A stretch of 64,000 nt of DNA, taken from NCBI GenBank assembly GCA_963971535.1, contig OZ020593.1:14544904-14608903 (forward strand), read 5' to 3'. This document shows positions 687 to 61,775 of the stretch, piece by piece. Numbering within the stretch: position 1 is the first letter of the stretch; each line of letters opens with the position of its first letter. The notes beneath the pieces are model-generated. The model had not been told where the DNA came from, did no database searches, and was given only the letters and a program-made list of their open reading frames with translations. Both the position numbers and the translations under genes were made by a program. The DNA comes from Notolepis coatsorum (Eukaryota; Chordata; Actinopteri; Aulopiformes; Paralepididae).

Positions 687-1711
687 TAGGGGTGGACGGT
701 ATAAACGGTATACGGTATAAACGGTATGAATTTGCTCTACGGTATGGATTTTGCCTATACCGTGTAACCGGTAGTGCAGCTCTAAAATAGCAATGACGTC
801 ATGTAACCACAGCGCGACTATTTCACTCGCATTTGCCCCTAAAAATAGATAGAATTAGTCATAGATAATAGATATGTGCGAACTGGAAAAAGTTATTTAG
901 GAGGCTTCGCGCAGTGGGCGTGCCAGCCCCTCCCGCACGCATGTAAACACGGGTCTACTAGTACAGTCTAGTGGGACGGGACGTCTCCCTGAGCTAACGT
1001 TAGCTTAGCTGCCGTTACAAAATGACCCAGTCAACTATTCACTTTTAGTTTAATACATGATGAGGCATTGTCTAACCGAACGGTATCTAGTCGGCCAGCT
1101 ACCGATAGCTCCTGACATCAACAAACGCTCCCATCAAGTCTAGTAGAGAGTAGACGTGTATGATAGCTCCGTTAGCCGTTAGCTCACGTTAACACAAGTT
1201 AGTTCACCGTTCAAAACGAAATGTCCCATTGAACTAAATAATTCACTGAGGCGTTGTATTAACGTTATATATCCGGCTAGCAGTAGCTACAGATAGCTCC
1301 TGATATCAATGTCTTATAACACTGATTCGATGCGTATTCGAGCTGAGGGCTTGTGAATGTGATTTAACGTTATACCAATACTAGGGCCCAGCTGCAGCGC
1401 CGGTGAATCCTGGCCGTAGCTCGAGGCTACTCGAGTATAGGTCCAGCTGCAGCTCCGGAGAATCCTGGCCGTAGCTAGAGGCTACTAATGTACACACAGA
1501 CAGTGGAGCTTGTTGCGTGGTGGCGATGTCTCGCAGATAATACAAGTACAAGTCTAATTATATAATATATATATTTTATATAAAAAAAAAAAAATTATAT
1601 AAAATAAAAAAAAAATTTAATCAAAAACGATGATACCGTGATATATACCGTTACCGTCTATGCTTCAAATTATACCGTGATATAAATTTTAGACCATACC
1701 GTCCACCCCTA
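687..1711. mobile_element. hAT-type non-autonomous element (TACGGTAT family)
   Basis: Terminal inverted repeats TAGGGGTGGACGGTATA and its complement bound a 1025-bp element. It is flanked by an exact 8-bp target duplication, TCCTCCGC (679-686 and 1712-1719), the length typical of hAT transposons. The subterminal parts are rich in the word ATACCGT/ACGGTAT. The interior has repeated GCTAACGTTAGC-like words and an A/T-rich stretch at 1555-1620. No transposase reading frame is seen, so it is a MITE-like passenger. Confidence 0.9.
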
Positions 1712-5753: not shown

Positions 5754-6739
5754 TAGGCCTGCCGCGATAAGCAATAAATCGATTAATTGCCGCGATAATT
5801 AAAATGAATGCAATGATTTTGACGGGCGCGATTAATTGCTATTTGCGCGTTTGTTTTAATGAGGCGGACCCAGTGCCCCTTGTCAGTCACTGTCCGTGTT
5901 GGGAGGCGGGCCGCTGGCTTTCTATTCTACTAGCATTAACGTTACTCATACAAACAGAGTAAACACAGTTTTCAATCAATCAATCAATAACAACATTAAC
6001 GAGACCCTCGTTGTGTCTATTCTGCTAACGCTAACGTTACCTCTCATTGTGTCTATTCTACAAGCGTTAACGTTAGCTGTAACGTTACCAGTCGCGTCTA
6101 TTTGCTAACGTTAGCATTAGGTAATAACCGGTTTAAAATGGATGGTGATTACCTCACGTTGTGTCTATTCTACTAGCATTAACGTTACTCATACAAACAA
6201 TCAATAGCGAGTTATATTGATCACGCTATGTACGATAGCCATGCTAAAACGCTAGCACAACATTAGCACCTAACCTAACAACAAGCCTTAACAAGTCAGC
6301 GATCTTTTTGCGAGACTAAACTCTCCGCTCGGTGGCAAATTGTGTTGATGTCGGTTTTGTTTAATCAATAAATGAGGCAGAATACACAGTGACTGTATCC
6401 TTTGTTTATTGCACTTGTGCCTGCTGCAAACATAATGCTTATGAAATCCTAGAGACGCGTCTCTATTCTGACCAATCAGTGGTCTGCAGTGTTTCACGTG
6501 ACTTTTCTGGTACCCAAAGTACCTGATAATCGCAACAATACTTCCGGTCCGGTCGGTGGGCTTCAAAATAAAAGTCTAAAACACCGGAAAAGACGGAGCG
6601 GTGGGCTTCAAAATAAAAGTTTTGGGAAATAAATTTCTCCAAAAAAAAAATTCTCTAACCGGTCGCAATAATATCGCTTATCGCGATATTTTCGGGGGCA
6701 ATTAATCGCCCAGCAAAATGTGTTATCGTGGCAGGCCTA
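5754..6739. mobile_element. hAT-type MITE (CGCGATAA family)
   Basis: Termini TAGGCCTGCCGCGATAA and TTATCGTGGCAGGCCTA with an exact 8-bp duplication CGTCTGCA (5746-5753 and 6740-6747). Subterminal regions repeat CGCGATA and AATTAATCG. The interior has three tandem-like copies of TCTATTCTACTAGC(G/A)TTAACG and an inner direct repeat GTGGGCTTCAAAATAAAAGT (6557-6620). No transposase frame is visible. Confidence 0.92.
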
Positions 6740-9074: not shown

Positions 9075-9225
9075 AATATGATGAATTGAAAATGGGGGAC
9101 CCTGATGTAAACAAGACGAAAGTCTTTCGCTGGTCTGCATCCCCTTAACAATTGTATGTATTGAGCTGTACTGTACCCATTCTGCAATATGTTAATAAAG
9201 TTTTAAATCAATCAATCAATCAATA
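9075..9225 (+). mobile_element. LINE 3' end with (CAAT)n tail
   Basis: The segment from ATGAATTGAAAATGGGGGAC through GATGTAAACAAGACGAAAGT, GTATTGAGCTGTACTGTACC and TTAATAAAGTTTTAAA ends in (CAAT)n. The same 3' end recurs at 9275-9432 (diverged), 13340-13490, 13500-13640 (reversed), 23850-24020 (reversed) and inside both arms of the palindrome at 29200-31592. The tandem tetranucleotide tail after an AATAAA-like signal is typical of a non-LTR element. Confidence 0.75.
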
Positions 9226-9274: not shown

Positions 9275-9432
9275 GTTTTGATGAATTGAAAATGGAGGAC
9301 CCTTATGTAAAAAAGCCGAAAGTCTTTTTCTGGTCTTCATCCTCCAGTCAGTCCACTGTTGTTGTATTGAGCTGTACTGTATTGTACCCATTCTGCAATC
9401 GTTAATAACGTTCATTCATTCAATCATTCAGC
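9275..9432 (+). mobile_element. LINE 3' end, diverged copy with (TTCA)n tail
   Basis: Starts ATGAATTGAAAATGGAGGAC, with AAAAAAGCCGAAAGTC where other copies have AACAAGACGAAAGTC. It ends GTTAATAACGTTCATTCATT. It lies in direct orientation only about 50 bp after the first copy, inside the same hAT element. Confidence 0.7.
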
Positions 9433-13217: not shown

Positions 13218-13490
13218 ATGCGTAACAGTACTGTATATTTGCATATCATGTATGTCACAAATGTAACGGTAATATATACCTGTATGTCATGTATATCCCT
13301 ATGCCATAAATGTCATGTATGTTGTGTATGTCATAAATGTCACTATGAATTGAAAATGGGGGACCCTGATGTAAACAAGACAAACGTCTTTCTCTGGTCT
13401 GCATCCCCTTATTATTGTGTGTATTGAGCTGTACTGTATTGTACCCATTCTGAAATCTGTTAAATAAAGTATTCATTCAACCAAACCACA
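13218..13490 (+). mobile_element. LINE 3' end, tail-to-tail partner
   Basis: Contains GTAACAGTACTGTATATTTG, several TGTATGTCA words, then the shared ATGAATTGAAAATGGGGGAC to AATAAAGTATTCATTCA tail. It faces the reversed copy starting at 13500, making a large inverted repeat with a spacer of roughly 20 bp. Confidence 0.75.
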
Positions 13491-13499
13491 AAAACAAAA

Positions 13500-14262
13500 C
13501 AACTGGATGAATGAAAACTTTATTTAACAGATTGCAGAATGTGTACAATACAGTACAGCTCAATACACACAATAATAAGGGGATGCAGACCAGAGAAAGA
13601 CGTTTGTCTTGTTTACATCAGGGTCCCCCATTTTCAATTCATATTGACATACACAACATAGAATAGATAGAATAGAAATACTTTTATTATCCCGTGGGAA
13701 ATTTGACACTGCAAATCGCTCAACATTTAAACATTTAGACAGGACAGGTCACGAATTAGAATAATAACACAAATCAATCAAGTTGCCTAGGATAAGAGTA
13801 GAGTAAAATAGAATAAAAATGAAATAAAATATACAGAAATAAATACAGTAAAAACATACATGACATCATGACATACAGGTATATACTGTAGTACTGTTAC
13901 ATTTGTGACATACGATATGCAAATAATATACAGTACTGTTACCCAGAGATCATAACAGAAAATATTATATATATATGATGGGGATGAGACTGTACATTAG
14001 GAGGAGGGGGGGGGGGTTGGACATTTACGGTGGCCAGTTTCGAATTGCAGCCTCCCGTAGGTGCTCTTTAAGAGCGGTTTTGAATGTGGGCAGGGGTAAA
14101 GTGGGTTTTAGGAGTGAGGTTAAGCAGTAGTCTGACCAGTTTGTTTTGTGATGTTTGTAATCTTGTTTTTAGTGCCTTTGAGGTGCTTTGGTACCATGAG
14201 GTGCAGGCATAGTCGTAGTACCCTTGAATGAGTGTACTGAGAGTACCCATGATTTTTGCCAT
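13500..14262 (-). mobile_element. LINE 3' part with reverse-transcriptase C-terminus, interrupted
   Basis: Minus-strand frame 14068-14262 includes YYDYACTSWYQSTSKALKTR and LQTSQNKLVRLLLNLTPKTH. This matches the usual end of jockey/L2-clade fish LINE polymerases (a DYACTSWY...KLQ.SQNK..R..LNL.P.TH pattern). Continuing in another frame gives FKTALKEHLREAAIRNW, so an internal deletion has joined distant parts. The 3' UTR and tail run to 13500 (GGATGAATGAAAACTTTATT). A foreign repeat at 13660-13857 interrupts the 3' UTR. Confidence 0.75.
13660..13857. mobile_element. Retroelement fragment nested in LINE (copy at 40378-40560)
   Basis: AGAATAGAAATACTTTTATT, then ATCCCGTGGGAAATTTGACA and CTGCAAATCGCTCAACATT, run through AATAGAATAAAAATGAAATA. 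The same text recurs with few changes at 40378-40560. The ATACTTTTATTATCCCG start is the reversed tail of a fish LINE. It interrupts the right arm of the surrounding inverted LINE pair, so it inserted later. Confidence 0.65.
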
Positions 14263-18905: not shown

Positions 18906-18910
18906 ATATT

Positions 18911-19193
18911 TAACCCTTTCACTACCACACTACTGTGAAGGTTAGCGTTTCACTACCACACTACAGAAGGTTAACCCTTTCACTACCACACTACAGAAGG
19001 TTAACCCTTTCACTACCACACTACAGAAGGTTAGCGTTTCACTACCACACTACAGCAGGTTAACCCTTTCACTACCACACTACATAAGGTTAACCCTTTC
19101 ACTACCACACTACAGAAGGTTAACCATTTCACTACCACACTACAGAAGGTTAACGATTCACTACCACACTACAGAAGGTTAATGTTTCACAGA
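18911..19193. repeat. About 30-bp TTAACCCTTTCACTACCACA minisatellite
   Basis: About nine units of TTAACCCTTTCACTACCACA plus CTACAGAAGG, some with TTAGCGTTTC in place of TTAACCCTTTC. The same unit occurs at 28245-28415, 33690-33840 and, reversed, 61270-61775. The TTAA plus CCCTTTCACTRCCA core resembles the terminus of a piggyBac-type element. Confidence 0.9.
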
Positions 19194-23848: not shown

Positions 23849-23884
<36 letters not shown>

Positions 23885-24714
23885 AAGTTTATTAACAGAT
23901 TGCAGAATGGGTACAGTACAGTACAGCTCAATACATACAATTGTTAAGGGGATGCAGACCAGAGAAAGACTTTCGTCTTGTTTACATCAGGGTCCCCCAT
24001 TTTCAATTCATCATAACATAATGACATACATGACATACAGATAGACAGTACTGCTACATCTATACATTTATGACATATCAGATTTGTAAATACAGTACTG
24101 TTTGTGATACAAAAAGAGTCCAGAAAAAGAGTGTATATACATTTGGCGTAGAAACTGTACATTGGATCCACCACAGTTGCACTCAATATTTAAATAATGT
24201 TAGTCTAAATAAATGTAGACAGAAACATAATAATTTCAAGCAGAAAACGAATCTTTCCATTAAGAACTGACAATCAGGGAATTTAAACATGGTTGACATT
24301 GTTTTTGTGTGTTTATATTAATTAAAGAAAGGAAAGTCTAGTGCTGGCTGAGCATATTGTTTGTTTGCACTAAGTTAATTAATACTTTGACAAATGTAGC
24401 CTATATTTTTCAGTCAGTTCGGTCTTTGTGTGCCAAACATTATTTAAGGCTGTAAACACTGTGAACCTTTTATTTTATTTTTAATAAATGAGAAGCATGT
24501 TTAGATTTGAGTGTAATAAAAATGTACGTATATCGAACTGAAAACCGTGACCCCAAAATCGTGATACGAACCAAACCGTCCATTTTGTGAACCGTCCCAC
24601 CCCTACCGTTTATCATAAAAATTCAGTGCCCCCGAAATACAAAAAAAAGCCCCCGAAAATCAATTAAGGGGGGCAAAAAAAGCCCTTGAAAAAAAATGTT
24701 AATTTCTAACCCTG
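23176..24714. mobile_element. hAT element with CAGGGTTCGAAATTAAC ends, 1.5 kb
   Basis: Perfect-looking inverted ends CAGGGTTCGAAATTAAC and GTTAATTTCTAACCCTG with the exact duplication ATACAGGC (23168-23175 and 24715-24722). Subterminal TGCCCCCGA/AAGGGGGGCA words are repeated at both sides. A reversed LINE 3' end is nested at 23850-24105 and a solo right terminus of the 17342 family at about 24530-24605. The element interrupts the LINE pseudogene at 24715-25640. Confidence 0.9.
23850..24105 (-). mobile_element. LINE 3' end, reversed, (TTGA)n tail
   Basis: Begins (ATTG)n at 23848-23882, then AAAGTTTATTAACAGATTGC, GGTACAGTACAGTACAGCTC, and GGGTCCCCCATTTTCAATTC, followed by TGACATACATGACATACAG repeats. 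This is the complement of the tail at 9075-9225. Confidence 0.75.
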
Positions 24715-28244: not shown

Positions 28245-28415
28245 AACCCTTTCACTGCCACACTACCATTCACTGTGACAATACAGAAGGTTAACCCTTT
28301 CACTGCCACGCGGCAAAGGGTTAGCCCTTTCACAACCAACACTAGAGAAGGTTAACCTTTCACTACCACACTACAGACCGTTAACCTTCTGTATTGTGGT
28401 AGTGAAAGGGTTAAA
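28245..28415. repeat. TTAACCCTTTCACTGCCACA repeat cluster, both orientations
   Basis: Units in + sense (GGTTAACCCTTTCACTGCCA) are followed by one in - sense (GTGGTAGTGAAAGGGTTAA at 28396-28414). The cluster is therefore bounded by inverted TTAA-type ends, unlike the head-to-tail arrays at 18911 and 61270. Confidence 0.85.
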
Positions 28416-29052: not shown

Positions 29053-29199
29053 GTGTCTATAGATACACCAGCCATTGTTTCTCTCAACAATAGCTTGAAT
29101 CTCACACCTAGAGAGACAATGTCCCCAAACCCACCCTATCCCCACCCCTCTCTGTCCACAAGAGAGCTGGATTCCCTTCTCCACACCAGTGTCTCCTAA

Positions 29200-31592
29200 G
29201 GCTATGGTTAGACTAGTGTATTCCTGGCGTTTTTTATACGTTTTTGACGACGTTTCATGTCCTATCTACACAGAAATGCGTTTTTTGGCGTTTTTTTGTG
29301 GATACGGCTGAAACGCAAAATTGTGTTTGCGTTTGGAGATACGCAAAAAAAACGAGTCGACAACAGCGTGTAGTCAGCACGGAGCAGTTGTTGCGAAAAC
29401 GCCCATGCGCAGTAGATACCATCTGCGTGCCCTTCCGGTGACAACAGTGTGTGTGTTTGGGACAGAGCTCCGTGTCCCAAATAGCTTCAGCTACCATGTG
29501 TTGTCAAGTTATTGTTATAAGGACCCCAGTCCAAGCTACAACAGTCTGCATTCCCTTAACAATTGTTTGTATTGAGCCGTATTGTATTGTACCCATATGC
29601 AATATGTTAAATAAAGTTTACATCCATTCATTCTGCTAGCATTACCGATTGCATGAGCAGCTGGCTAACGTGAGCTATCAGGATTCAGACCCTGTTAGCT
29701 CAGAGTTCCTCTTTCAACTTAACAAGCATTAAACAAAATGGCCCAGTCATCTATTCACCTTTGTTTAATACACACAGCGTTGTCTCTAATGTTATCTAAC
29801 TACTGATAGCTCGCGATATCATCAGTTTCGTGCTGGCTAAGTAGCGTGAGCTAACGTTAGCTTCTAGCCACAATGCTATATTGTTATAATGGCATACTCC
29901 ATTGACGTTAGCATGCAGCTAACAATGCTACCGATCGTTTTTTAGACTAAACTATCCGCTCTTGGTGGTCACTTGTGTTGATGTTAGTTTTGTTTCATCA
30001 ACAAATGACAGGCAGAACACACAGTGAATGTATCCGTTTTGTTTATTGCACTTTTATTAGGCTTTGCTGAAAAAAGAATTGCTGCATTGAGTGAGCAAGC
30101 AAGATGGTGGCGCGGCATAGGCGCCTGCCTTATTGACATTTTCTTTGCTGGAGCTTCCACCAGGAAGTGTATTGGCACATTCGTTCTGATTGGTTGAAAT
30201 TGCCTTCATGTTTGCCACCTACTGCCACCTACTGCTTTGGCAGTGTACTACATCAGTGTGCTCGGCTGACAAAAACGAAAAAAAAACGAAAGTGTGACTC
30301 AGGCGCACGACGTCGCGGCGATACGCATAAGAAAACAATACGAAGATGATACGAAAGGTGTAACCTCTGCCTAACTGGCCAGGATGAGAGCACTCCTCTC
30401 GGCTAAAGCTGAGGTTACACCTTTCGTATCATCTTCGTATTGTTTTCTTATACGTATCGCCGCGTATCGCCGCGACGTCATGCACCTCGAGTCACACTTT
30501 CGTTTTTTTTCGTTTTTGTCAGCCAAGCACACTGATGTAGTACACTGCCAAAGCAGTAGGTGGCAGTAGGTGGCAAACATGAAGGCAATTTCAACCAATC
30601 AGAACGAATGTGCCAATACACTTCCTGGTGGAAGCTCCAGCAAAAGAAAATGTCAATAAGGCAGGCGCCTATGCCGCGCCACCATCTTGCTTTACTCAAT
30701 GCAGCAATAATTTTTCAGCAAAGCCTAATAAAAGTGCAATAAACAAAACGGATACATTCACTGTGTGTTCTGCCTGTCATTTGTTGATGAAACAAAACTA
30801 ACATCAACACAAGTGACCACCAAGAGCGGATAGTTTAGGCTAAAAAACGATCGGTAGCATTGTAGCATTGTTAGCTGCATGCTAACGTCAATGGAGTATG
30901 CCATTATAACAATATAGCATTGTGGCTAGAAGCTAACGTTAGCTCACGCTACTTAGCCAGCATCAAAACTGATGATATCGCGAGCTATCAGTAGTTAGAT
31001 AACATTAGAGACAACGCTGTGTGTATTAAACAAAGGTGAATAGATGACTGGGCCATTTTGTTTAATGCTTCTTAAGTTGAAAGAGGAACTCTGAGCTAAC
31101 AGGGTCTGAATCCTGATAGCTCACGTTAGCCAGCTGCTCATGCAATCGGTAATGCTAGCAGAATGAATGGATGTAAACTTTATTTAACATATTGCATATG
31201 GGTACAATACAATACGGCTCAATACAAACAATTGTTAAGGGAATGCAGACTGTTGTAGCTTGGACTGGGGTCCTTATAACAATAACTTGACAACACATGG
31301 TAGCTGAAGCTATTTGGGACACGGAGCTCTGTCCCAAACACACACACTGTACACAGGAAGGGCACGCAGATGGTATCTACTGCGCATGGGCGTTTTCGCA
31401 ACAACTGCTCCGTGCTGACTACACGCTGATGTCGAAGCGTTTTTTTTGCGTATCTCCAAACGCAAACACAATTTTGCGTTTCAGCCGTATCCTCAAAAAA
31501 ACGCCAAAAAACGCATTTCTGTGTAGATAGGACATGAAACGTCGTCAAAAACGTATAAAAAAAGCCAGGAATACACTAGTCTAACCATAGCC
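29200..31592. mobile_element. 2.4-kb palindromic foldback element, PIF/Harbinger-like
   Basis: The left arm (29200-30367) is repeated as its reverse complement in the right arm (30411-31592) with few differences, around a unique centre of about 43 bp. The outer ends are GGCTATGGTTAGACTAGTGT and its complement, flanked by TAA on both sides (29197-29199 and 31593-31595), as expected for a 3-bp Harbinger-type target duplication. Each arm carries the LINE-tail text TTAACAATTGTTTGTATTGA. The mirrored small ORFs have no domain, so transposition in trans is inferred. Confidence 0.85.
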
Positions 31593-31739
31593 TAAGCTTA
31601 TTTAATCTACATGAATCTTGTTTGTTTAAGGGTTTCACTATTAAACCTATATTGATCATGAAGTTCCGTCTATGACACAAATTGATGAGTCCGTTCCACC
31701 ACATGCGAAAACTGTGGGAGGAGTTTCTGTCCAAAAAGT

Positions 31740-32115: not shown

Positions 32116-32254
32116 AGTGAGGAGCTGACTATTTTGCGCTTTGCTTTTTTTGGTACATTTTAAAAGTTAAATGCATCAATCTGGTGCACTTTGAGAGCAA
32201 AATAAAGAGGCTAGATCTATGATGAACTTTGTGCTCAAAACACAAAATCAACTA

Positions 32255-32455
32255 GACTAGTGCTTCCCAATCCTCTCCTCGAAGCACCCCAGCCGTTCAA
32301 TGAATTTGTTAAATTCCACCACCAGCACACCTGATTCAACTTAACTAGCCCTTTATTAGTTGAATCAAGGTGTGCTGGTGGTGGAATTTAACAAATACAT
32401 GGAACGGCTGGGGTGTCTCGAGGAGAGATTTGGGAACCACTGGACTAGAGCAGAC
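32255..32455. mobile_element. Short foldback MITE, about 195 bp
   Basis: Left arm AGTGCTTCCCAATCCTCTCC through AAATTCCACCACCAGCACAC is mirrored by GTGTGCTGGTGGTGGAATTT through GGGAACCACT. The centre is short (TTAACTAGCCCTTTATTAG). The ACTAGTGCTTCCCA...TGGGAACCACTGGACTAG ends resemble hAT-type MITEs that start CAGTGGTTCCC. The arms span roughly 85 bp each. Confidence 0.8.
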
Positions 32456-33029: not shown

Positions 33030-33166
<137 letters not shown>

Positions 33167-33366
33167 NNNNNNNNNNNNNNNNNNNNNNNNNNNNNNNNNN
33201 NNNNNNNNNNNNNNNNNNNNNNNNNNNNNNNNNNNNNNNNNNNNNNNNNNNNNNNNNNNNNNNNNNNNNNNNNNNNNNNNNNNNNNNNNNNNNNNNNNNN
33301 NNNNNNNNNNNNNNNNNNNNNNNNNNNNNNNNNNNNNNNNNNNNNNNNNNNNNNNNNNNNNNNNNN
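33167..33366. other. Assembly gap, exactly 200 N
   Basis: Two hundred consecutive N. The round number suggests a placeholder of unknown real size. The left flank is CT repeat, and the right flank has CTGCCTGCTGCCACGG followed by C-runs at 33431-33451 and 33508-33538, which are hard to sequence. Confidence 0.99.
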
Positions 33367-33689: not shown

Positions 33690-33840
33690 CATCGTAACCC
33701 TTTCACTACCACACACTACAGACGGTTAGTGTGGTAGTGACAGGGTTAACCCTTTGGTAGTGTGGTAGTGAAAGGGTTAACCTGTTATTCTTGCAGTGAA
33801 AGGGTTAACCCTTTGGTAGTGTCGTAGTGAACGGGTTAAA
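33690..33840. repeat. TTAACCCTTTCACTACCACA repeat cluster, both orientations
   Basis: Starts AACCCTTTCACTACCACACA on +, followed by several reversed units (GTGGTAGTGAAAGGGTTAA and TAACCCTTTGGTAGTGT). As at 28245, + and - units meet at shared TTAA. Confidence 0.85.
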
Positions 33841-49984: not shown

Positions 49985-50762
49985 AGAGTCCTACAGGCAG
50001 CTCCACCTGCACACTAACAGAGGAGCTGTTCTCACAGGCAGCTCCACCTGCTGCACACTAACAGAGGAGCTGTTCTCACAGGCAGCTCCACCTGCTGCAC
50101 ACTAACAGAGGAGCTGTTCTCACAGGCAGCTCCACCTGCTGCACACTAACAGAGGAGCTGTTCTCACAGGCAGCTCCACCTGCACACTAACAGAGGAGCT
50201 GTTCTCACAGGCAGCTCCACCTGCTGCACACTAACAGAGGAGCTGTTCTCACAGGCAGCTCCACCTGCACACTAACAGAGGAGCTGTTCTCACAGGCAGC
50301 TCCACCTGCACACTAACAGAGGAGCTGTTCTCACAGGCAGCTCCACCTGCTGCACACTAACATAAGAGCTGTTCTCACAGGCAGCTCCACCTGCACACTA
50401 ACAGAGGAGCTGTTCTCACAGGCAGCTCCACCTGCTGCACACTAACAGAGGAGCTGTTCTCACAGGTAGCTCCACCTGCACACTAACAGAGGAGCTGTTC
50501 TCACAGGTAGCTCCACCTGCACACTAACAGAGGAGCTGTTCTCACAGGTAGCTCCACCTGCACACTAACAGAGGAGCTGTTCTCACAGGTAGCTCCACCT
50601 GCACACTAACAGAGGAGCTGTTCTCACAGGCAGCTCCACCTGCACACTAACAGAGGAGCTGTTCTCACAGGCAGCTCCACCTGCTGCACACTAACAGAGG
50701 AGCTGTTCTCACAGGCAGCTCCACCTGCTGCACACTAACAGAGGAGCTGTTCTCACAGATAG
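49985..50762. repeat. 42/45-bp minisatellite, about 18 copies; resumes at 52006-52075
   Basis: Unit GAGGAGCTGTTCTCACAGGC plus AGCTCCACCTGC(TGC)ACACTAACA, where an optional extra TGC makes 42- or 45-bp units. CAGGC/CAGGT variants cluster at 50460-50620. After the T-rich array two more units appear at 52006-52075, so the two arrays interrupt one another. Confidence 0.95.
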
Positions 50763-51990
50763 CTTTTAGTTAGTTCATTTATTTATTTATTTTTTTCGTT
50801 TTAGTTTTTTTTTTTTGTGTTTTTGTTTTAGTTTTTTTTTTTTTTTTAGTTTTAGTTCGTCCTTTTTTTGCTTTTTTTGTGTTTTCGTTTTAGTTCGTTT
50901 GTTTTTTTGCGTTTTTGTTTTAGTACATTCGTTTTTTTGCATTTTTTTTGTGTTTTTGTTTTAGTTCGTTTGTTTTTTTGCATTTTTGTTTTAGTTCGTT
51001 CGTTATTTTGCGTTTTCGTTTTAGTTCGTTCGTTATTTTGCGTTTTTGTTTTAGTTCGTTCGTTTTTTGCGTTTTTGTTTTAGTTTGTTAGTTTTTTTGC
51101 GTTTTAGTTCGTTCGTTTTTTTTGCGTTTTTTTTTTTTTTTTGTGTTTTAGTTCGTAAATTTTTTTGTGTTCGTTTTTTTACGTTTTAGTTCGTTTGTTA
51201 TTTTTTGTTTTAGTTCGTTCGTTATTTTGCGTTTTCGTTTTAGTTTGTTCGTTATTTTGCGTTTTCGTTTTAGTTCGTTCGTTTTTTTGCGTTTGTTTTA
51301 GTTCGTTCTTTTTTTTGCTTTTTTGTGTTTTCGTTTTAGTTCGTTTGTTTTTTTGCGTTTTTGTTTTAGTTCGTTCGTTTTTTTGCATTTTTTTTTGTGT
51401 TTTTATTTTAGTTCGTTTGTTTTTTTGCATTTTTGTTTTAGTTCGTTCGTTATTTTGCGTTTTCGTTTTAGTTCGTTCGTTATTTTGCGTTTTTGTTTTA
51501 GTTCGTTCGTTTTTTGCGTTTTTGTTTTAGTTCGTTAGTTTTTTTGCGTTTTTGTTCGTTCGTTTTTTTTTGCGTTTTTTTTTTTTGCGTTTTAGTTCGT
51601 AAATTTTTTTGTGTTCGTTTTTTTGCGTTTTAGTTCGTTCGTTATTTTTTGTTTTAGTTCGTTCGTTATTTTGCGTTTTCGTTTTAGTTCGTTCGTTATT
51701 TTGCGTTTTTGTTTTAGTTCGTTCGTTTTTTGCGTTTTTGTTTTAGTTCGTTAGTTTTTTTGCATTTTAGTTCGTTCGTTTTTTTTTGCGTTTTTTTTTT
51801 TGCGTTTTAGTTCGTAAATTTTTTTGTGCGTTTTTTTGCGTTTTTGTTTTAGTTCGTTCGTTATTTTTTGTTTTAGTTCGTTCGTTATTTTGCGTTTCCG
51901 TTTTAGTTTGTTTGTTATTTTGCGTTTTCGTTTTAGTTAGTTCGTTTTTTTGCGTTTGTTTTAGTTCGTTCGTTTTTTTCTCATATAGAG
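50763..51990. repeat. T-rich GTTTTAGTTCGTTCG array with higher-order repeats
   Basis: Degenerate units of about 20-30 bp built from GTTTTAGTTCGTTCGTTATT and TTGCG(T)n. A longer block repeats: 50868-51083 and 51323-51538 are almost the same (offset about 455 bp), and the marker TTAGTTCGTAAATTTTTTTG recurs at about 51150, 51592 and 51805. The Phe/Val/Leu-rich frames of 60-121 residues mimic membrane proteins but only reflect the repeat. Confidence 0.93.
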
Positions 51991-52079
51991 AGTGAGAGAG
52001 ACAGACAGAGGAGCTGTTCTCACAGGCAGCTCCACCTGCACACTAACAGAGGAGCTGTTCTCACAGGGAGCTCCACAAT

Positions 52080-60765: not shown

Positions 60766-61269
60766 ATCTACAAAAATAAAGATGGCGGCGAAGGTGAACG
60801 CACTGTCGCCCGTCAGGATGGGTATCGACAAGAAAACAAATGGACATTATTTTGTTGATTTAATTAAATAAATTGACAGGATTTGCATAACAGAATCAAT
60901 GCTGTGCTCGCGGGAGAACATGTGTTAGAAACACTTATCTCTAATGGGGACCGTGGAGGGAAGACGCCCTTGGCATGTACGCCGCTGAAGCTAATCTTCT
61001 TCATTCTCTTTAAAGCCACTCTGTGCTTTTGAGTGCCGTTCAGTGACTGAAACGGTTCAGTTGTGTAATCAATAAGGTCGTAAACCCTGACCTTAAACTC
61101 TGGGTTTAGCATTTTCCCCTGGCGGCGCGGGTTAAGTTGATGGTGAAGTGGGACGTGTTCAGTCTGATGTGTGAGAAGCCCTGGACTGCATTCATATATA
61201 ACTCTTTTATCCACATTCACCCGTTCACTTTCAAAAAGATATGTCACACATTCACACACAGGCGGTGTT
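60766..61269. other. ERBIN intron, no feature recognised
   Basis: A 131-residue minus-strand frame (60864-61259) has no domain or splice-bounded conservation. CGTTCAGTGACTGAAACGGT is a small palindrome at 61029. Confidence 0.4.
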
Positions 61270-61775
61270 AGTGAAAGGTTAACCTTCTGTAGTGTGGTAG
61301 TGAAAGGGTTAACCTTCTGTAGTGTGGTAGTGAAAGCATTAACCCTTTGTGTGGTAGTGAAATGTTAACCTTCTGTAGTGTGGTAGTGAAAGGCTTAATC
61401 GTCTGTAGTGTGGTAGTGAAAGGTTAACCTTCTGTAGTGTGGTAGTGAAAGGGTTAACCTTCTGTAGTGTGGTAGTGAAAGGTTAACCTTCTGTAGTGTG
61501 GTAGTGAAAGGTTAACCTTCTGTAGTGTGGTAGTGAAAGGGTTAACCTTCTGTAGTGTAAAAGCGTTAACGATTTGTAGTGTGGTAGTGAAAGGGTTAAC
61601 ACTTGGTAGTGTGGTAGTGAAAGGTTAACCTTCTGTAGTGTGGTAGTGAAATGGTTAACCTTCTGTAGTGTGGTAGTGAAAGGGTTAACCTTCTGTAGTA
61701 TGGTAGTGAAATGGTTAACGTTCTGTAGTGTGGTAGTGTAACGCTTAACCTGTAGTGTGGTAGTGAAAGGGTTAA
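61270..61775. repeat. TTAACCCTTTCACTACCACA minisatellite, reversed, about 17 units
   Basis: Units GTGTGGTAGTGAAAGGGTTA plus ACCTTCTGTA, mostly 29-30 bp, the complement of the array at 18911-19193. Several units lost one G (AAAGGTTAACC), and some read GCTTAATCG or GCGTTAACG, again matching variants seen at 18911. Confidence 0.94.

Follow-up and report, generated by a model that had tools for sequence, protein, structure and literature searches.

An inverted pair of PIF/Harbinger-like nonautonomous DNA transposons as the probable source of a 2.4-kb palindrome in Notolepis coatsorum

Introduction

The locus analysed here raises the question of how a palindrome of 2.4 kb, with an element-like end and a TAA triplet at each of its borders, came into being: as a single transposable element with giant TIRs, as an inverted duplication of one inserted element, as two separate insertions of related elements, or as an error of assembly. 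It was studied in a window of 64,000 nucleotides, the whole stretch of DNA that was analysed, and all positions given below refer to this window.

Results

Architecture of the palindrome

The imperfect palindrome occupies positions 29200-31592 (2393 bp), with its arms in mirror orientation (Table 1), and is far beyond chance. All 2393 bp match their own other strand in BLASTN (95.5% identity over 2424 columns), and in the list of the 25 longest inverted repeats found in the 64 kb, the first two by length are parts of this structure. Global, end-to-end alignment of the left arm with the reverse complement of the right arm gave 1147 columns with identical bases and 18 with mismatches; a further 28 columns are gaps, which fall into nine indel events. 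The coordinates, the ends and the outer TAA triplets given in a preliminary description were confirmed, and the arms, which it had put at about 1.17 and 1.18 kb with few differences, were measured as 1172 and 1186 bp with the 18 mismatches just mentioned. Its 43-bp centre is likewise correct when the arms are made to stop at the innermost matching pair (30367/30411), whereas 35 bp (30372-30406), consisting of TAA, 29 bp and TAA, lie between the element ends proposed here.

Outside the arms, matches in mirror register number 8 of 30 in the outer flanks and 5 of 14 in the spacer, i.e. the flanking DNA is not mirrored. With both flanks and spacer unmirrored, each arm would end where the element ends, outside as well as inside, as two separate insertions predict. 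BLASTN at E 0.1 found no other copy of the 29-bp spacer in the window.

The arms are closely related, with 18 mismatches among 1165 aligned bases (1.5% divergence, 98.5% similarity) in addition to the nine indels. The longest run free of any difference event between them measures 280 bp, more than a uniform spread of the differences would lead one to expect (P=0.018), a weak hint of gene conversion. Of the recent origin or conversion read earlier from the high arm identity, the divergence shows close relatedness and gives a weak sign of conversion. The mismatches comprise 5 transitions and 13 transversions; this imbalance was considered as an oddity and dropped, since it is not significantly different from that of 10 further repeat pairs in the window (82:90; Fisher P=0.14, binomial P=0.07), these being the pairs that remained after hand removal of tandem arrays and overlapping pairs.

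Table 1. Positions of the palindrome arms, their borders and contents, and of related or neighbouring repeats in the 64-kb window.
Feature	Position	Strand	Basis or remark
Left arm (proposed element)	29200..30371	+	1172 bp, ends GGCTATGGTTAGACTAG... and ...GGTGTAACCTCTGCC
Right arm (proposed element)	30407..31592	-	1186 bp; same family as left arm, opposite orientation
TAA, putative outer target-site copy, left element	29197..29199	+	sequence
TAA, putative inner target-site copy, left element	30372..30374	+	sequence
TAA, putative inner target-site copy, right element	30404..30406	+	sequence
TAA, putative outer target-site copy, right element	31593..31595	+	sequence
29-bp spacer	30375..30403	.	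read as host DNA separating two insertions
Core of LINE-like 3' tail segment, left arm	29544..29633	+	AATAAA, short ATTC repeats
Same LINE-like tail core, right arm	31161..31250	-	sequence similarity
Tail-like places elsewhere	9133-9203, 9362-9425, 13397-13479, 13504-13590 (-), 23870-23959 (-)		sequence similarity
Segment related to 6300-6416 (84%), left arm	29932..30053	+	arm offset 733-854
Counterpart of that segment, right arm	30732..30853	-	
Minisatellite arrays of ~30-bp units	18910-19182, 28278-28388, 33727-33839, 61265-61775		

Element ends and TAA triplets

The plus strand carries TAA at all four arm ends, of which only the outer two had been recorded previously. Given the frequency of TAA in the window (0.0216), two inner TAAs at fixed positions are expected by chance at about 5e-4; the inner boundaries were, however, set after viewing the sequence, 4 bp past the innermost matching pair on each side, and because this choice left a few bases of freedom the true chance of the inner TAAs is a few times higher than 5e-4. 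Each pair of triplets is interpreted as a probable target-site duplication.

In the left arm, the outer and the inner end agree at 10 of 14 positions (GGCTATGGTTAGAC at the outer end against GGCAGAGGTTACAC read from the inner end), a match that was equalled in a proportion of 0.0005 of 20,000 random window pairs, 14 being the best of five lengths tried (0.032 for 8, 0.0047 for 12, 0.0027 for 16 and 0.0062 for 20 bases). At length 20 the ends agree at 11 of 20 positions, and a gapped similarity extends to about 45 bp, with local scores of 21 for the left and 26 for the right element, obtained without a shuffle control. The outer ends of the palindrome are identical inverted 17-mers beside TAA. 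The inner ends are not alike: the inner end of the right element (AGCTGAGG, starting AGCT) is without the initial GGC of that of the left element (GGCAGAGG, starting GGCA). Judged by these borders, a single arm looks like a small DNA transposon in its anatomy, one of the four ends being imperfect.

Contents of the arms and coding capacity

Arm offset 345-434 recurs, wholly or in part, at five other places in the window with 82-86% identity, in agreement with the preliminary report of LINE-tail sequence within the arms; some of these places carry longer AATC or ATTC runs. The segment looks like a LINE 3' tail, as judged from AATAAA and the ATTC/AATC repeats rather than from a database match, and since it is common to both arms, its presence in the family predates the separation of the two copies. 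The same type of tail is found twice, tail to tail, in a smaller palindrome of the window (13318-13483 / 13504-13669), which has 166-nt arms of 92% identity 20 bp apart. Besides the segment related to 6300-6416, arm offset 534-573 is 90% similar to window positions 1017-1057. The region 5950-6420 was considered as a colinear relative that would include the tail segment and was rejected: a significant alignment was obtained only around 6300-6436, and the upstream part scored 27, whereas the best of 300 shuffled sequences reached 33.

Twenty-six stop-to-stop ORFs of at least 45 amino acids overlap positions 29150-31650, some of them in the flanks, and 10 of the 26 were scanned against Pfam. None of these ten had a match above the curated cut-off, and no Pfam match to a DDE transposase or Myb-like gene was obtained among them. 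The idea of coding arms was rejected; one ORF gave PF25011 with E=0.021 and 14.9 bits, the cut-off being 27, which was taken as a chance match. No Rfam family reached its gathering score anywhere in the window. The elements appear to be non-coding and, if so, must have been moved by proteins from elsewhere. BLASTN revealed no further single arm and no further copy of the whole palindrome within the 64 kb. Exact patterns, four searched against viral and one against prokaryotic contigs, gave no match, although such DNA says little in this respect.

Other repeats in the window

The repeat content of the window gives the impression of teleost DNA. Downstream of the palindrome lies what may be a separate MITE, an inverted repeat of 81 nt with 35 bp between its arms (32252-32332 / 32368-32448; 89% identity). 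An assembly gap, a run of N at 33167-33366 about 1.6 kb from the palindrome, directly follows a long TC repeat (33034-33166). Closely similar tandem units of ~30 bp, such as TTAACCCTTTCACTACCACACTACAGAAGG, form separate minisatellite arrays in both orientations. T-rich tandem repeats, with TTTTTTTGCGTTTTTGTTTTAGTTCGTTCG as an example of their units, fill about 1.2 kb at positions 50778-51979; the AT skew of 50001-52000 is -0.54.

Discussion

Origin of the palindrome

The palindrome is best explained, with a probability of roughly two in three, as two ordinary nonautonomous DNA transposons of PIF/Harbinger-like type that were inserted separately and lie in inverted orientation. Two copies of one cut-and-paste family, about 1.17 kb long and apparently non-coding, with short imperfect GGC... 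ends and a TAA target duplication, would have entered TAA sites separated by 29 bp, one copy in each orientation, moved in both cases by a transposase presumably supplied elsewhere; the palindrome would be a by-product. Because each arm has its own TAA pair and similar ends, each looks like a complete element and the palindrome like two elements, so that a single element with giant TIRs is unneeded. The chance figures behind this reading rest on a boundary and a length picked after the data had been seen. The earlier proposal of an inverted dimer of a composite element comes near to it, and its tail segment is real.

Such a single element would be a fold-back unit with TIRs of about 1.18 kb and a loop of 35-43 bp, transposed whole and with the outer TAA duplicated once, the inner TAAs being either relics of the event that formed the dimer or a matter of chance. 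The identical inverted 17-mers at the outer ends beside TAA, set against the differing inner ends, speak for it, as does the existence of long-TIR elements in fish, for example a hAT-derived MITE of cod with TIRs of about 600 bp (PMC12368964). By itself, however, a fold-back unit leaves the inner TAAs and the resemblance of inner to outer ends unexplained, and if the inner TAAs are relics, an earlier dimer is still needed, formed just as two insertions would form it; we regard this origin as unlikely. Still less probable is an inverted duplication of one inserted element at the locus, by template switching or repair of a hairpin-capped break. It would fit the 98.5% similarity of the arms and the long run of 280 bp without differences (P=0.018), but must have stopped at both element ends. 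A duplication that carried the TAAs of the first copy predicts TTA on the plus strand beside the right arm, where TAA is found, and the flanks show no mirrored sequence; we consider this origin very improbable. An assembly error, in which a single arm was entered a second time in reverse or two haplotypes were fused, is hardly credible. The 200-bp run of N nearby (33167-33366) does show that the assembly is not gap-free; against this, the arms are separated by 27 difference events, 18 mismatch sites and nine indels, so the second arm is no simple echo of the first, and the joins coincide with TAA and with element ends.

The reading as two separate insertions is compatible with a later move as a unit, since all four triplets are TAA and inner and outer pairs are therefore not separable by sequence. 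Its outer ends might now allow the pair to be mobilised together, as a unit of 2.4 kb. A compound unit in the full sense, in which joint use of the outer ends would have turned two insertions into a spreading 2.4-kb fold-back element with 1.18-kb arms that makes long hairpin RNA when transcribed, is a distinctly doubtful proposition. The accessible part of PMC10288884 lends no support to local re-insertion.

Hairpin potential and significance

The minimum energy predicted for RNA of the 2393-nt strand is -2194 kcal/mol, compared with -754 kcal/mol for a control of nearly equal length composed of two direct left arms. The predicted fold follows from the palindromic sequence, and the energy only restates the palindrome; any read-through RNA would, according to this model, fold into a long hairpin. 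Kilobase palindromes should readily form cruciforms, suffer deletion and give rise to hairpin RNA, and the locus offers a clear case in which close inverted insertions of one transposon family possibly made one. Should the two elements also move together, the pair would illustrate the birth of fold-back elements; failing that, the locus belongs to ordinary repeat biology.

Comparison with known elements

In PIF/Harbinger elements the target duplication has the general form TWA, and GGC-type ends are typical. The TAA triplets and GGC ends of the arms suggest this superfamily. The likeness to nonautonomous, Tourist-like members extends to a 3-bp TAA on either side of each arm, probably a duplication, to the GGC-type ends, to the lack of any coding capacity found and to presumed movement by outside proteins; the arms differ in their length of ~1.17 kb, in the LINE-like tail segment and in the two-copy palindrome. 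In PMC9179366, Harbinger elements are given 3-bp target duplications and TIRs usually of 25-50 bp, compared with which the arm ends are short and imperfect. According to PMC2836001, the target duplication of mPing, a PIF/Harbinger MITE, is usually TAA, and the extended target preference of PIF/Harbinger in vertebrates covers 15 bp. Because no transposase was found among the ORFs scanned, the ends are short and the window holds no other copies, the family is called PIF/Harbinger-like, membership being unproven.

Clustered or tandem MITE insertions share with this locus the close proximity of related elements, of which there are just two copies here, 29 bp apart. According to PMC13155455, inverted repeats whose perfect arms are thousands of bases long occur almost only in bacteria; that count covered perfect arms with spacers of at most 8 bp, a definition outside which the present palindrome falls. 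Among the literature matches listed, no title or abstract opening names an element of this build, a statement about those matches and not about print as a whole. The structure is of an ordinary kind and of low novelty.

Galileo and Foldback are fold-back elements with long inverted arms around a short centre. The palindrome resembles them and the cod element gadMor-hAT-1784 in this arrangement, since most of its length is taken up by its very long inverted arms. The cod element is of MITE type, its ~600-bp TIRs occurring in tandem clusters, and cod breakpoints contain inverted repeats in tandem arrangement (both from PMC12368964). The arms studied here contain no tandem array, as opposed to the cod element with its units of 167-169 bp (PMC12368964), and, unlike in fold-back and long-TIR elements, each arm is bounded by separate element ends and by a TAA pair of its own.
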